Assembly (NCBI GenBank): GCA_020630795.1
Contig: JAHDIK010000005.1
Coordinates: 72,346-136,345, forward strand
Direction: 5' to 3'
Length of the DNA stretch: 64,000 bases
Source of the DNA: Colwellia sp.
Lineage (GTDB): Bacteria > Pseudomonadota > Gammaproteobacteria > Enterobacterales > Alteromonadaceae
Shown: piece by piece, positions 34,830 to 40,187 of the stretch
Position numbering within the stretch: position 1 is the stretch's first letter
Layout of the letters: every line of letters starts with the position of its first letter
Notes under the pieces: model-generated
What the model was told of the DNA's origin: nothing
The model's input: the letters and a program-made list of their open reading frames with translations, nothing else
The model's database searches: none
Made by a program: the position numbers and the translations under genes

Positions 34830-36434
34830 GTGAAGCTGCAACACAAGATTATATTGTTACCAATCAGCATTATCATGGTTATTTTCATGATTTGCATGGT
34901 AAGTATTGAATACCACTTAAAGAGATTGCTTCAAGAACGGTTTGAAAATGAACTGGGCACTATCGCGTCTTTTTCTTTGTCAGCCGTTGAGCTTGTTAGT
35001 TACGACTTCGATGTTAATTCTTTAGATTCCTCCTTTGATCTTTTAGCCGATCGCATTAGTAAAGCAAGTAATGCTCGAATTAGTTACTTAACTTATAAAG
35101 GTGTGTTGATAGGTGATTCAGAGTTAACATTTTCAGAGATTTTATCCTCACCGCCTCTTATTGAGCGTAAAGAAGTGATAGATGCCATCAATAACGGTAA
35201 CGGAACCGTAAAACGATATAGCCACCTAAACCAAAAAGAAACGGTTTATTTTGCCGTGTACAATGAAAAATCAGGCTTTATCGCACGAGTTTCAATGCCT
35301 GAGCATTCATTTGATAGCACTATTGTGAACCTTAGATTAAATTTTATTTTCATTATTTTGGCAACTATTGCTTGTATTGCCTTGCTTGGGTGGTTCTCTA
35401 TTAATCTAATTAAAAAGTCAGTTAAAAAAGAACGTGATAGGCAAGAAGTTCGAATCGTTAATCGCACGCGTGAAATTACGTATATGCAAACTATGACCAC
35501 GTTATTAAACGGTGCTGAACATTTAGAAGAATCCGCCCATATTTTGACTAATATTATGCCTAAACTGCTACCCAACTGCAGCGGCGCTATTTCTTTATTA
35601 GAAAATAATGAAACGGCCTACGAGTTAACACATTGGGGAGACAATTGGCCAAAAGAAGTGTCTTTATTACCCACACAATGTTGGTTAAAGAGTACATCGA
35701 ATCACGCTGATACAGAAACAGAATTTTGTACTAAAGAAGGTAATATTCTCTGCGTTAAACTTGTTAATAATAAAGAGTGTTTAGGGTCACTCCATTTAAT
35801 CGCATCATCAGGAAATGTTGATGACAATTTCAAACATCATGTCGATGAAATTGCAAAACAAATCAGCAGCGCATTATCTAATCTCATTTTAAAAGAGCGC
35901 TTAAAAAACGAAGCGACTCGGGACCCTTTAACAAATTTATACAATCGACGTTTCATGCTTGAGACATTTAAACAATCACTCAATAGAACTGAGCGTCATA
36001 AAGGGCATTTAGCTGTTTTACTTATCGATCTTGATCACTTTAAGTCTTTCAATGATGAATTTGGGCATGATGCTGGAGATATGGTGTTGTCTGAAGTCGC
36101 TAAATTATTTCAAACCAATTTACGATTAGAAGATATTGCGTGTAGATACGGCGGCGAAGAGTTTTGTGTTATATGCCCTGATACAGGGTTGAAAGACGCG
36201 TTTTTACTGGCTGAAAAGCTTAGAGAGCGAATAAATAAAGCAGTACTTACTTATAAGAATAAAACTCTATCTGCTATTACGATGTCTATTGGTATTTCAG
36301 TATTTCCAAATCATGGTGCTACAACGTCAGAACTTATCGCAGAAGCTGATAAAGCATTATATAAAGCAAAAAGAAATGGTAGAAATTGTACCGTAGTTGC
36401 AAATTCAGGTTCTCAGTATCAGAAACAAAAATAG
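34830..36434 (+). CDS. Membrane-bound GAF-GGDEF diguanylate cyclase
   Basis: The 534-residue protein has a membrane span (about 7-26), a periplasmic sensor region (about 30-168), a second span (about 170-192), a short coil, a GAF-like domain (about 215-350) and a GGDEF domain (about 360-525). The active site is intact: LIDLDHFKSFND at about 398-409 and GGEEF at 441-445. A RLED inhibitory I-site (432-435) lies exactly five residues upstream, so product feedback is expected. It starts with GTG at 34830, chosen because TAGGAG at 34815-34820 gives a good ribosome site. The sensed signal is unknown. Confidence 0.9.
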   Translation: MKLQHKIILLPISIIMVIFMICMVSIEYHLKRLLQERFENELGTIASFSLSAVELVSYDFDVNSLDSSFDLLADRISKASNARISYLTYKGVLIGDSELTFSEILSSPPLIERKEVIDAINNGNGTVKRYSHLNQKETVYFAVYNEKSGFIARVSMPEHSFDSTIVNLRLNFIFIILATIACIALLGWFSINLIKKSVKKERDRQEVRIVNRTREITYMQTMTTLLNGAEHLEESAHILTNIMPKLLPNCSGAISLLENNETAYELTHWGDNWPKEVSLLPTQCWLKSTSNHADTETEFCTKEGNILCVKLVNNKECLGSLHLIASSGNVDDNFKHHVDEIAKQISSALSNLILKERLKNEATRDPLTNLYNRRFMLETFKQSLNRTERHKGHLAVLLIDLDHFKSFNDEFGHDAGDMVLSEVAKLFQTNLRLEDIACRYGGEEFCVICPDTGLKDAFLLAEKLRERINKAVLTYKNKTLSAITMSIGISVFPNHGATTSELIAEADKALYKAKRNGRNCTVVANSGSQYQKQK

Positions 36435-36464: not shown

Positions 36465-36920
36465 ATGGATAAAATATTTATTAGTGCTTGTTTACTCGGC
36501 GAGAACGTTCGTTATGACGGTAAGCATCAGAAATTATCAGAAAAGATAGTACTTCAATGGCGAAAAGAAGGGAGGCTTGTTGGTGGTTGCCCTGAATGTT
36601 TAGGAGGTTTACCCGTTCCACGTGATCCCGCTGAAATTGATAGCAATTCAAAACAAGTTATCACGGTAAACGGAGAAAATGTAACGTTGCCATTTATGAC
36701 AGGAGCTCAAAAGGCGTTAGATTTGTGTGAAAAAGAAAATATTAAATTTGCACTGTTAAAGGAATCTAGTCCGTCTTGTGGTAGTAATAATATTTATGAT
36801 GGGTCGTTTTCAACACGCAAGATAACAGGCGAAGGAGTTACAGCTGCACTTTTGACCAGAAATGGAATACGTGTATTTTCAGAAAATACAATCAATGAAT
36901 TAGCTCAACTTATTCGATAA
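36465..36920 (+). CDS. DUF523 family protein
   Basis: The 151-residue protein has the DUF523 marks: ISACLLGENVRYDG at the start, GGCPECLGGLPVPRDPAEI in the middle and ALLKESSPSCGSNNIYDG, with several conserved cysteines that may bind metal. No function is proven for this family. It follows the GAF-GGDEF gene by 30 bases and is convergent with the riboswitch-controlled GGDEF gene, whose stop is 7 bases away. Confidence 0.88.
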   Translation: MDKIFISACLLGENVRYDGKHQKLSEKIVLQWRKEGRLVGGCPECLGGLPVPRDPAEIDSNSKQVITVNGENVTLPFMTGAQKALDLCEKENIKFALLKESSPSCGSNNIYDGSFSTRKITGEGVTAALLTRNGIRVFSENTINELAQLIR

Positions 36921-36927
36921 CGGTCGT

Positions 36928-37896
36928 TTAAATTAAAGCTCGACGCGTTTTATCTATGACCGTATTGACGTTTTGCGATACTTTAAATTGATTTACTCCT
37001 ACTGCCACAGTCATTTGAGGTAATCGAACGCCAGACTTACTGCTAATAAACCTTAATTTACCAACACCCTGTCTAATCTTTTCACCAATTTCGCTTGCGA
37101 TTTGAGTATTAATTTCAGGTAAAAGAATAAGAAACTCATCTCCTCCAGTTCTAACAGGTAAGCCACTATGGTCAACATAACTTTCAATTTTAGCGGCGAT
37201 TTTGGTTAACAATACATCACCAATTAACGAACCGAAGCGCTGAGTTACTTGGCTATACTGCTCAATGTTGATTACAATTGCAGCGACATTCTTATTGGGG
37301 TCTTCTTTAAACCATGTTTCAATATGCTTAGACATAGCTTTTCGATTGTGTAATCCGGTTAATGGATCAAGATAAATCTCTTTTCGTACTTGCTCTAATT
37401 CATCTTGTAAGTTTTTACTTTGTTGTTGGCATTCATGCAATTGTTCGGTCAATTGTTGTTGTTGAGTTTTAAATTTAAGGGATGCTTTTGCTATGTTGCT
37501 GTAGGCGGTGGATACTTTTTCTTCGTCTTTAGATTTTAACTCATTAATGTTGATGTCTAGCGCTGAAATAAAACCATCAACCGATGATGTAGATTGTTGA
37601 GTATTTTGTTCAACTGAACTGATAAGTTCATCAAAGTCGGTCAACATATCATCTCTAAACTTGCTCTGACCGAGCACAAATTGCTGATAAACAGCTTCCA
37701 TATAGAAGTTGTCTAACTTTTTACCTGTGGATAGTTGATATTTAATTGCAGTGATTAGTGCAGAGTTGTTTTCAGCAACAAACTCATAACCTACAGCATA
37801 GTTGATAGGTGTTGCGGCTAGGTGCCATAGTTCAAGTTGCTTTATTGTGAGCGCTAATAAATTATTGGCTTGTTTGATGGAATCTTGATATTTCAT
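36928..37896 (-). CDS. Cytosolic GGDEF protein under a c-di-GMP riboswitch; active site partly altered
   Basis: The 322-residue protein has no membrane span. Residues 1-130 form a helical region of unknown type, residues 135-172 a Gln-rich coiled coil, and residues 173-322 a GGDEF domain. The signature GGDEF is intact at 251-255, but the usual DxDxFKxxND block reads NIEQYSQVTQ from residue 210, so the first metal-ligand aspartate is Asn210 and the following Asp and FK are also changed. There is no RxxD I-site. Activity is thus doubtful; it may bind GTP or act as an effector. The 5' leader (37897 to about 38211) holds a GEMM-I riboswitch with its own promoter. Ribosome site AAAGGTG lies before the ATG. 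Confidence 0.88.
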   Translation of the reverse strand: MKYQDSIKQANNLLALTIKQLELWHLAATPINYAVGYEFVAENNSALITAIKYQLSTGKKLDNFYMEAVYQQFVLGQSKFRDDMLTDFDELISSVEQNTQQSTSSVDGFISALDININELKSKDEEKVSTAYSNIAKASLKFKTQQQQLTEQLHECQQQSKNLQDELEQVRKEIYLDPLTGLHNRKAMSKHIETWFKEDPNKNVAAIVINIEQYSQVTQRFGSLIGDVLLTKIAAKIESYVDHSGLPVRTGGDEFLILLPEINTQIASEIGEKIRQGVGKLRFISSKSGVRLPQMTVAVGVNQFKVSQNVNTVIDKTRRALI

Positions 37897-38053
37897 CTAA
37901 CACCTTTTGTTATTATTAATTAACATCATTTAAGTGAATGAGTATTACTTGAATCTCATTGTACCTGATAAAATTATCATAATTATGTTAAAGAATTAAA
38001 TTATTTTTGAAGAGATGAAATTTTAAAAGAAAATCAATTGAATTGAGGAAGGC

Positions 38054-38123
38054 CGCAAAGTTATCGGAGGTATTGAGATAGGTTTACTGAAAAATTAGAC
38101 AAGCCCCCACATATCTAATTTTT
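38054..38123 (-). promoter_or_regulatory. Putative expression platform of the c-di-GMP riboswitch
   Basis: Just past the aptamer, AAAAATTAGA (38123-38114) and TCTAATTTTT (38099-38090) form a perfect 10-base-pair AT-rich hairpin ending in five Ts. Further on, 38067-38054 (CCGATAACTTTGCG) pairs with the aptamer core at 38168-38155 over 14 positions with one mismatch. That pairing would consume GACGCAAAG and cannot coexist with ligand-bound aptamer. The assignment as expression platform is inferred. Confidence 0.55.
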
Positions 38124-38205
38124 GCAGTTCCGCTATCGTAGGTTGCCCTTTAGACCGGTAACTTTGCGTCTCTAGCTTTCGCTAGATTTGCCCTTAAAGA
38201 ACGTA
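38124..38205 (-). ncRNA. Cyclic di-GMP-I (GEMM) riboswitch aptamer
   Basis: Read on the minus strand, the sequence follows the GEMM-I consensus in order: GGGCAAA, then a hairpin TCTAG-CGAAAG-CTAGA with the conserved GAAA tetraloop, GACGCAAAG (38170-38162), CCGG, the tetraloop receptor TCTAAA, a second stem, and the downstream TAGCGG element. A short closing helix can form between 38202-38198 (GTTCT) and 38131-38127 (GGAAC). The spacing matches the Vibrio cholerae Vc2 aptamer. It lies in the leader of the GGDEF gene that starts at 37896, 230 bases downstream. Family knowledge: this class binds c-di-GMP and controls transcription end or translation. The direction of control here is not clear. 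Confidence 0.88.
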
Positions 38206-38217
38206 AGTTCCATGGTC

Positions 38218-38246
38218 ATTATCTTTGATAGTCGTTTGTTTGTAAA
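38218..38246 (-). promoter_or_regulatory. Sigma-70 promoter for the riboswitch-GGDEF transcript
   Basis: On the minus strand TTTACA (38246-38241) and GATAAT (38223-38218) are separated by exactly 17 bases, each one mismatch from consensus. Transcription would start near 38211, a few bases before the GEMM aptamer, which fits a leader beginning with the riboswitch. Confidence 0.75.
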
Positions 38247-38342
38247 GTTAAGCGTCACATTTCCTATATATCGTAAGGGTATTGGCAACGACCTTATTCT
38301 TGTATACTGTTTTTTGAACAGTTCCTGATAAAGTTTTCTATT

Positions 38343-40187
38343 GTGTATAAGTACATATTTTTAATATTGTTTTTTGTTACCTTGTCGAGTGTAGATGCAT
38401 TGGAGGGCAGTGCTGACAAGACCTTTGAAAACAAAGCCAACGAGATTGAAAAATTATTTCTTCTTCATGAAAATATTGTCAGTAATGACAAAGCAATAAT
38501 CACAGCCCAAGATGTAATTCAAAATAGAACGAAATACTCTAATAGTACAATTGCTAGGGCGTTTATAGTACTTGCCAACATTGCCTACAATAAAGGCGAT
38601 AGCTCACAAGCATTTCAATTTGCGTTAGACGGACTGTCTTTATCTGGTTTAAGTGACGAATTAAAACTTAATTTGATACTTAAAATTACTAAAGGATACT
38701 ACAAAGAATTACAGTTTGAAGAAGTACTGGAACACGCTGATTTAGCACTCAAACTCACTTACGGTATTGAGCAAGTTCCCACGAGAATAATCGCGTTGAG
38801 TTATAAAGCAATGGCATTATCAACGTTAGGTGAGCCTGAAAAAGCGAATACGATACTTAATAAAATAGAGTTATTGATTCAAAACAACCAATTCTTTGAG
38901 CACATTAGTGTTTTAGAAATTTTGGCGGATGCCTATTTGTTTCAGCGAGATTTTCAAACAGCAATATCACTCTATAACAAAGTGATTACATTGAAGTTTG
39001 ACCGTGCTCAATTGATTAACCTAGGCCATACATTTCTTAGTCTTGCAAAAGCGTACCATTCAAATGTTAAGTTGGATGATGCCTACAACGCATACTGGGA
39101 AAGTAGAGTGCATGCGGGAGAATATAATTTGCCTATTCAAGCCGCTTTGGCTGATCTTGGTCTTGGGCAAGTTTTATATCAACAAGAAAAATTCACACAA
39201 GCTTACAAAGTATTGAAAGAAGCGTACAGCGCTTTGTCTAAGGAGGATCTTGTTTCTTCTTACCTCGATACCCTTATCGCTTTGGCGATGACGTCTGAGA
39301 AAGTTGACTCTCGAGAACAAGAGAATTGGCTTGCAAAAGCCCAAAAATTAGCACAAGGAAGAACATTAACGTCTGAGCAAATAGTTGTTTTTAAGCTGTT
39401 AGCGGAAATGTCTTTTAAGAATGAAAAGTTCAAAGAGGCTTATTTTTATCAGGCTCGCTACTTATCGCTGTTTCAGACCCATTTTCCTATTCTAAAGCGA
39501 ACGTTAGCACCTAAACACACTCAAAAGTCGTCAGTGAGTAATAATCGACAATTAGTTATGAAGCTCTCGGATCACAGTGATTTAAGTGTTAACTACGAAA
39601 CAAAATTTAAGAAACAAGAAATGCTTATTTTTTGGTTGTCGTTTGTACTTATTATTGTGTTAACTGTATTAATCATAATTTGGGTTAGGAGAAATAGGAA
39701 GACTCATGAGCATTATTCTGGCTCAACAGAGTTTAATGGAAATACCATTGCATCACCTAATCAAACAAAGCAGCTTTACCAGTTTATGTTTAAAATGGCG
39801 AGAAAGTATCAATACCCTTTAACTATTAGCTATATAGTGGTGGAAAATTGGAACGAATTGGCATTTCACTTTGATAAAAAAACGGTGAGAGAAGTTAATA
39901 ACACTCTTTCTACACTTATCAGTGAATACATAAACGAATTCGATCGAGCTGGAAAGATTAACGATGGTGAATACATTTTAATGTGCCCGCATCAACATTC
40001 TAAAGTGATACAAAGCAATCTAGATAAACTAGCGGAAGCTTTAAAAGTACGTTTTTTCGCTAATATTGGTGATTTTTCTGTTAAGATAAAGTACAGCTGC
40101 GATATGCCAAGTGTTCAGGATATCGATCCATATTTATTTTTATCGCGATTAAGCGAAAGTCATTCGAAAACTAGTACAAAGAAGTAG
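38343..40187 (+). CDS. TPR membrane protein with degenerate C-terminal GGDEF domain
   Basis: The 614-residue protein has a signal peptide (about residues 1-19), a periplasmic TPR array (about 35-380), one membrane span (about 429-449) and a cytosolic domain (about 470-605) that keeps the GGDEF fold pattern but not its residues. The signature position reads NDGEY (540-544) in place of GGDEF, and the metal-binding aspartates are lost (VVENWNEL). It therefore should not make c-di-GMP; a signalling or scaffold role is likely. The start is GTG at 38343. It stands divergent from the riboswitch-GGDEF gene and only 7 bases before the next gene. The family occurs in other Alteromonadales. Confidence 0.75.
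   Translation: MYKYIFLILFFVTLSSVDALEGSADKTFENKANEIEKLFLLHENIVSNDKAIITAQDVIQNRTKYSNSTIARAFIVLANIAYNKGDSSQAFQFALDGLSLSGLSDELKLNLILKITKGYYKELQFEEVLEHADLALKLTYGIEQVPTRIIALSYKAMALSTLGEPEKANTILNKIELLIQNNQFFEHISVLEILADAYLFQRDFQTAISLYNKVITLKFDRAQLINLGHTFLSLAKAYHSNVKLDDAYNAYWESRVHAGEYNLPIQAALADLGLGQVLYQQEKFTQAYKVLKEAYSALSKEDLVSSYLDTLIALAMTSEKVDSREQENWLAKAQKLAQGRTLTSEQIVVFKLLAEMSFKNEKFKEAYFYQARYLSLFQTHFPILKRTLAPKHTQKSSVSNNRQLVMKLSDHSDLSVNYETKFKKQEMLIFWLSFVLIIVLTVLIIIWVRRNRKTHEHYSGSTEFNGNTIASPNQTKQLYQFMFKMARKYQYPLTISYIVVENWNELAFHFDKKTVREVNNTLSTLISEYINEFDRAGKINDGEYILMCPHQHSKVIQSNLDKLAEALKVRFFANIGDFSVKIKYSCDMPSVQDIDPYLFLSRLSESHSKTSTKK

Follow-up and report, generated by a model that had tools for sequence, protein, structure and literature searches.

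The window, a stretch of 64,000 nucleotides from the genome of a Colwellia species (contig JAHDIK010000005.1, positions 72,346 to 136,345), holds on its minus strand a c-di-GMP-I riboswitch aptamer preceded by a promoter-like site and followed by a gene for a GGDEF-domain protein, with a gene for a TPR protein diverging on the other side. The features of the locus, including those that emerged from the comparison with relatives described below, are:

36928..37896, minus strand: GGDEF-domain protein of 322 aa, the next gene after the riboswitch and on the same strand (PF00990, 93.3 bits)
38037..38050, minus strand: pyrimidine-rich tail, where the RNA may end, eroded in the window (TTCCTCAATTCAAT); judged by purine count, with conservation ending about here
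38049..38067, minus strand: putative anti-aptamer segment CCGATAACTTTGCGGCCTT, with complementarity to the core of the aptamer, ACGCAAAGTTACCGG, and to the GGGC that precedes it
38091..38124, minus strand: hairpin P4, with GTGGGGGC in its loop at 38110..38103, from loop conservation and stem pairing
38120..38202, minus strand: c-di-GMP-I (GEMM-I) riboswitch aptamer (RF01051, 77.7 bits, full length)
38198..38211, minus strand: 5′ hairpin P0 (GGAAC-UUAC-GUUCU), predicted at the inferred transcription start near 38211
38218..38246, minus strand: putative sigma-70-type promoter, TTTACA-17-GATAAT, with 10 of 12 consensus matches
38343..40187, plus strand: divergent TPR protein of 614 aa, the usual upstream neighbour (TPR hits)

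The GEMM-I aptamer that the initial annotation had placed on the minus strand was borne out by the covariance model: in a cmscan search of the whole window, RF01051 matched 38202..38120 with 77.7 bits against a gathering score of 35 (E 1.5e-13), over the full length of the model (1-87 of 87), and no other Rfam family matched over threshold. By aptamer class the element is a c-di-GMP-I riboswitch, for which ligand binding is predicted. The promoter annotated together with it, with its two boxes 17 bases apart, is likewise present at 38246..38218, where it is the best of four such sites in 37800..38450, a region for which shuffles give 2.3; taken alone, it would be weak evidence. A similar pattern precedes the aptamer in 82 of the 85 related RNAs introduced below, against 4 of 259 control windows, and its family form in the alignment, across both gene layouts, is GTTTACA-N-TATAAT; the −10 box reads TATAAT in 77 of the 85 RNAs and GATAAT in the window. 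From this conserved sequence, the RNA would start near 38211. The only other c-di-GMP-I riboswitch over threshold in the genome (L002, G000:C1:49452-49543, 69.6 bits) has a conventional sense layout, directly before an ORF of 119 aa, with a similar ORF of 117 aa upstream on the same strand; by eye, both ORFs begin like secreted proteins. We also observed that a genome of the same genus (G084) carries two c-di-GMP-I riboswitches on one strand about 960 bases apart (C1:35798-35891 and 36757-36850).

The next gene does encode a GGDEF-family protein, as had been annotated, and starts 223 nt after the aptamer end. Its GGDEF motif is intact, the metal-binding Asp site, which we take to correspond to D327 in PleD numbering, is occupied by N, and the window protein has no I-site residues. 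Among 78 GGDEF sequences compared, that site holds N in 48, S in 19, D in 7, K in 3 and C in 1, and the GG of the motif is often replaced; the protein is possibly nucleotide-binding without cyclase activity. A second GGDEF protein is encoded nearby on the opposite strand (34830-36434), with 175 bits and an intact RYGGEEF motif. By eye, the C-terminal stretch of the TPR protein resembles a worn GGDEF domain (FDRAGKINDGEYILMCPH), in a place where Pfam reports no GGDEF.

With the window's GGDEF protein as query, 180 of 395 genomes of the family match at 1e-40. From these we compared 77 ortholog loci, chosen mainly by score, together with 3.5 kb upstream of each. RF01051 is found over threshold in 64 of them, always on the strand of the GGDEF gene, and in 13 no aptamer over threshold was found. 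One of these 13, L104, carries what looks like a decayed remnant of the RNA between its TPR and DUF885 genes (1356-1433 in GGDEF orientation), with the aptamer gone, the P4 loop broken and AACTTTGCGCG kept. The 64 loci and the window give 65 GGDEF-linked RNAs, which together with 20 further loci make up the set of 85; all counts over this set are qualified by a selection in favour of high GGDEF scores and pattern hits, and by the non-independence of related genomes.

The 65 GGDEF-linked RNAs fall into two layouts. In type A (24 loci, the window among them), the GGDEF gene starts 191-422 nt past the aptamer; in type B (41 loci), it lies 2.0-2.5 kb past it, with an opposite-strand gene of about 590 aa accounting for the added distance. 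The product of this gene is a DUF885 protein (PF05960) in all six cases scanned, and all 41 intervening proteins align over at least 572 residues, at no less than 53% identity, with another of the six scanned. The distance from the aptamer end to the stop codon of the opposing DUF885 gene is 56-226 nt. On a tree of the 78 GGDEF proteins, built with a quick method and showing some long branches, the layout changed at least 8 times, with no loss in the aptamer, whose median score is 80.3 in type A and 79.4 in type B; the tail motifs are also undiminished in the 24 loci without a facing DUF885 gene. On the other side, a TPR homologue diverges from the RNA in 61 of the 64 ortholog loci.

Alignment of the RNAs shows that both layouts are conserved alike, from the promoter to about 80-95 nt past the aptamer, with little conservation beyond. 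For this alignment we used 53 of the 65 RNAs, leaving out five at ≥90% identity and two as divergent (L135 and L132); five more stood outside it for a variant spelling in the motif search, and all five carry the motif. The interval 38120-38246 given in the initial annotation thus has the right coordinates for aptamer and promoter and falls short of the conserved element, which extends from about 38246 to about 38040. Its parts follow in the order promoter, 5′ hairpin, aptamer, hairpin with the GTGGGGGC loop, segment complementary to the aptamer core, and pyrimidine tract. The P0 hairpin, at −1 kcal/mol or better, is predicted in all 53 aligned RNAs, with varying stem sequences. The GTGGGGGC loop is found in 84 of the 85 RNAs, and in 64 of the 65 for which it was not a selection criterion. 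Pairs 1-5 of the P4 stem are formed in 83, 74, 82, 83 and 78 of 84 RNAs, respectively, and the outermost sixth pair in 42; L135 was excluded from the counts over 84 RNAs (stem, tail and folding). The stem shows compensatory changes from A-T to G-C at pairs 1 and 3 and from T-A to C-G at pair 2, as well as a change from G-C to A-T, and pair 2 is unpaired in 10 of the 84.

At the 3′ end, the anti-aptamer motif [CT]TTTGC occurs in 84 of the 85 RNAs, and in 64 of the 65 GGDEF-linked ones against 647 of 3250 (20%) shuffled downstream stretches, and the 14-nt tail has at most 2 purines in 78 of 84 RNAs. As natural controls, we took seven further aptamers of the c-di-GMP-I class from the family (L006, L007, L012, L018, L025, L029 and L031), an eighth (L002) having been left out since its core motif did not fit. 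Both 3′ elements are absent at the conserved place in all seven of these usable controls, and in all seven a sense ORF starts within about 200 nt of the core; in L031, where this first ORF is short (61 aa), a TTTGC is present much further downstream. The window's own copy departs from the consensus in its weaker −10 box, in one A missing before GTGGGGGC in the P4 loop and in a tail with 4 purines, and because of these departures the RNA may be decaying in the window's lineage.

A canonical intrinsic terminator after the aptamer was found neither in the window (37800..38450) nor, beyond expectation, across the set, where 5 of 65 loci have one against 7.4 expected from shuffles. Given these null results we dropped the canonical terminator and describe the 3′ end instead as a long-range hairpin followed by a pyrimidine tract. 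Also rejected was a conserved small ORF downstream of the RNA, as no frame was kept, by eye, in the part of the sequences compared; in type B loci the longest sense ORF outside DUF885 and before the GGDEF gene has 64 aa, with a median of 27.

Folding predictions, with energies for naked RNA at 37 °C, suggest how the 3′ segment could act. The first 121 nt of the window RNA are predicted to form the aptamer together with P4 (−33.6 kcal/mol), and in the 178-nt RNA the 3′ segment is predicted to pair with the aptamer core and the preceding GGGC (−56.8 kcal/mol). Of the 84 RNAs, 75 are predicted to form P2 and P3 when only the 5′ part is folded and 81 to adopt the anti-aptamer at full length, with 73 doing both. 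The RNA would thereby have, as a prediction, a segment that competes with the aptamer, as in an expression platform, in 81 of 84 cases against the 38 of 252 in which a shuffled 3′ part captured the core; with the anti-aptamer masked, the fold is less stable by an average of 15.4 kcal/mol, as computed for 64 RNAs. A swap test gave no sign of covariation between anti-aptamer and aptamer (−19.0 kcal/mol for an RNA's own duplex, −19.3 for swapped ones), because the aptamer core is itself near-invariant, and we dropped covariation as proof of the pairing. The predicted pairing draws on invariance, on the refolding predictions and on the shuffled controls, and from it we infer that c-di-GMP would decide between an aptamer with a free tail and an anti-aptamer with a hidden one.

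The RNA is also found away from its usual neighbours. A pattern of the aptamer core plus GTGGGGGC matches 95 of the 395 family genomes, 5 of which, by reading, hold chance matches only, leaving the RNA in 90 genomes from 19 genera of the family; the pattern is exact and misses variants such as L135. Wherever found, the RNA is present in one copy per genome. In a class-wide sample of 369 genomes the pattern occurs in 7, where by reading it marks the RNA in 2, both within the family, and chance matches in 5. We examined 20 of the pattern-hit loci, mostly from genomes outside the ortholog set, covering about 5 kb after the RNA. A c-di-GMP-I family match is present in all 20 (17 to RF01051 and 3 to RF03167), and no GGDEF orthologue follows the RNA within the 5 kb in any of them, the one GGDEF hit there, at L189, being a 28% match. 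Of these loci, 17 have an intact DUF885 gene facing the RNA, one (L183) has it in pieces next to an intact RNA, and two (L180 and L196) lack it, so that over the whole set an intact DUF885 gene faces the RNA in 58 of 85 loci (41 + 17). The TPR gene is present at 15 of the 20, and in four genomes with RNA and DUF885 another divergent gene replaces it; the one that was scanned, at L192, codes for an acyl-CoA thioesterase. As for the two loci lacking DUF885, the genome of L180 (G038) keeps the RNA, with an aptamer of 78.0 bits, and yields neither a DUF885 match nor a GGDEF orthologue at 1e-40, and in that of L196 (G331) the whole unit, promoter and tail included, stands before a UvrD/Rep helicase gene, while its own GGDEF locus (L112) has no aptamer over threshold.

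Seen across these loci, the RNA has no constant sense target after it (in 41 of 65 loci an opposing gene separates it from the GGDEF gene, and 20 loci are without a GGDEF orthologue), nor a constant opposing gene at its 3′ side (DUF885 is absent from 24 of 65 and 2 of 20 loci, and broken in 1 of 20). No neighbour is constant across the loci examined; the RNA is. By its architecture, as judged from the comparison across relatives, the RNA would represent a new free-standing variant of the c-di-GMP-I riboswitch, and simply switching the GGDEF gene on or off is probably not all that it does.

What the initial annotation proposed was that the second messenger probably controls a gene of its own pathway. 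The position of the RNA before the GGDEF gene, on the same strand, holds; control of that gene is unsupported by the comparison across relatives. Within 130 nt before the GGDEF start, 16 of the 24 type A loci and 27 of the 41 in type B carry a box of the form CTA[GC]A[GCA]AAT, which 21 of 3250 shuffles contain; since its rate is the same in both layouts, most GGDEF genes seem to have a promoter of their own in either. The box (loci L066-L142), which roughly two in three of the 65 RNA-bearing loci have, resembles TAGCACTTT...ACTAGAGAAT. It was not found in the window nor in the two same-genus relatives that we found, L066 and L067, which keep the GGDEF gene without the RNA and have other RF01051 matches elsewhere in their genomes. 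The absence of the box from the window leaves room, in this genome, for read-through from the riboswitch into the GGDEF gene.

We give about even chances to the reading that this element is a self-contained c-di-GMP-sensing small RNA of ~180 nt, which functions mainly as an RNA itself instead of serving the GGDEF gene as its dedicated leader. Transcription would begin at the 5′ hairpin, from the RNA's own sigma-70-type promoter, as conserved sequence suggests, and the first ~120 nt would fold into the c-di-GMP-I aptamer and P4. The last ~55 nt include the segment with complementarity to the aptamer core; once complete and unliganded, the RNA would refold into a long anti-aptamer hairpin followed by the pyrimidine tract, and bound c-di-GMP would hold the aptamer and leave the tail free. 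The RNA would most likely be a regulatory small RNA in which c-di-GMP determines whether the C/U-rich tail or the G-rich loop is exposed; run-through into the next gene may be a further output. The more specific form of this proposal, a c-di-GMP-gated small RNA acting in trans, in which the bound messenger frees the C/U-rich tail and frames the invariant G-rich loop for pairing with target mRNAs and in whose absence the tail is locked into the aptamer, we put forward only tentatively, as a possibility short of an even chance. In that form, the second messenger would directly switch a regulatory small RNA on or off.

Two observations speak against independence from the neighbours, and each has an explanation of its own. 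The intact DUF885 gene facing the RNA in 58 of 85 loci fits antisense control better, in which c-di-GMP would let transcription pass the tail into DUF885 and the antisense RNA would lower its expression, loci without the gene, such as the window, being leftovers or re-used. This accords with the 56-226 nt spacing in 41 of 65 GGDEF-linked loci and with the gene being intact in 17 of the 20 others, including the four genomes with no TPR gene there, as well as with the finding, in the accessible part of its source, that c-di-GMP riboswitches are the family most often in antisense orientation (152 antisense, 2,554 sense), one example being the uncharacterised Colwellia gene A3Q33_07785 (PMC9943018). 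Against it, aptamer score and tail motifs do not drop in the 24 loci without a facing gene, the RNA persists in G038 and beside the broken gene of L183, and the two DUF885 matches in the window's genome are both on other contigs; the survival of the RNA where DUF885 is lost counts against a role confined to antisense control, and we consider this explanation unlikely, if deserving of some weight. The other observation is the window's GGDEF gene on the same strand, a plausible pathway partner, whose read-through (into 36928-37896) c-di-GMP would alter in a classical cis-acting riboswitch with pathway feedback. Here the 223-nt spacing, the type A layout shared by 24 of 65 loci, the missing promoter-like box in the window and the predicted anti-aptamer hairpin and tail, which could be a terminator, are to be set against the 41 loci with 2.0-2.5 kb and an opposing gene in between, the equal frequency of the GGDEF box in both layouts and the same-genus relatives that keep the gene without the RNA, and we regard cis control as unlikely too, a shade more so than the antisense reading. 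An abundant RNA that merely soaks up the messenger, as proposed for merRNA in what is accessible of its description (PMC3627812), would account for the conserved promoter and 5′ hairpin; for such a sponge, however, the aptamer alone would suffice, which leaves the invariant GTGGGGGC loop and the refolding tail unexplained and makes it the improbable one among these explanations.

Returning to the self-contained small RNA, its relation to known systems is one of partial likeness. Its aptamer is that of RF01051, which the window and 81 of the 84 other RNA-bearing loci match at full length and above the cut-off, the remaining 3 scoring best with the sister family RF03167. Rfam types RF01051 as cis-regulatory, a leader of a sense gene, whereas the present group has a fixed 3′ domain and mostly no sense gene after it. 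Riboswitch RNAs with a second life in trans, as the present RNA would work, are represented by a trans-acting Listeria riboswitch, which we take to be SreA. The Listeria trans-acting riboswitch RNAs are terminated leaders of a sense gene, unlike the present one, for which action in trans is hypothetical.

In the accessible portions of two publications we find the nearest precedents for the remaining traits. The merRNA of Bdellovibrio bacteriovorus is described there as a free-standing c-di-GMP riboswitch RNA of 445 nt, massively expressed, unconserved outside the Bdellovibrio lineage, with no conserved ORF after it and a proposed role as reservoir, and the same paper cites the work on a trans-acting Listeria riboswitch (PMC3627812). 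The present RNA shares with merRNA, as far as that account goes, its free-standing state, with a promoter of its own and no conserved ORF after the aptamer, though type A loci do have a sense gene following; it differs in being ~180 nt long, spread over 19 genera instead of one lineage, and equipped with a refolding 3′ domain. The antisense-acting precedents cited in the accessible part of the other publication, the SAM riboswitch of C. acetobutylicum and the cobalamin riboswitch of Listeria (PMC9943018), converge on the 3′ end of a gene, as the RNA does with DUF885 here; going by what that part tells, they are unlike the present RNA in that the latter is kept where the facing gene is absent. 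No description of the present 3′ domain was found in the literature searched, a search beyond whose reach lay most subscription papers. The DUF885 layout may be part of the published antisense c-di-GMP riboswitch signal.

For annotation, the locus cautions against taking the gene that follows a riboswitch for its target in every case, and the published excess of antisense c-di-GMP riboswitches might in part consist of free-standing RNAs with changing neighbours. If the self-contained reading is true, these bacteria would have a c-di-GMP-reading RNA without a fixed link to any single downstream gene, and riboswitches have rarely been described in such a role.
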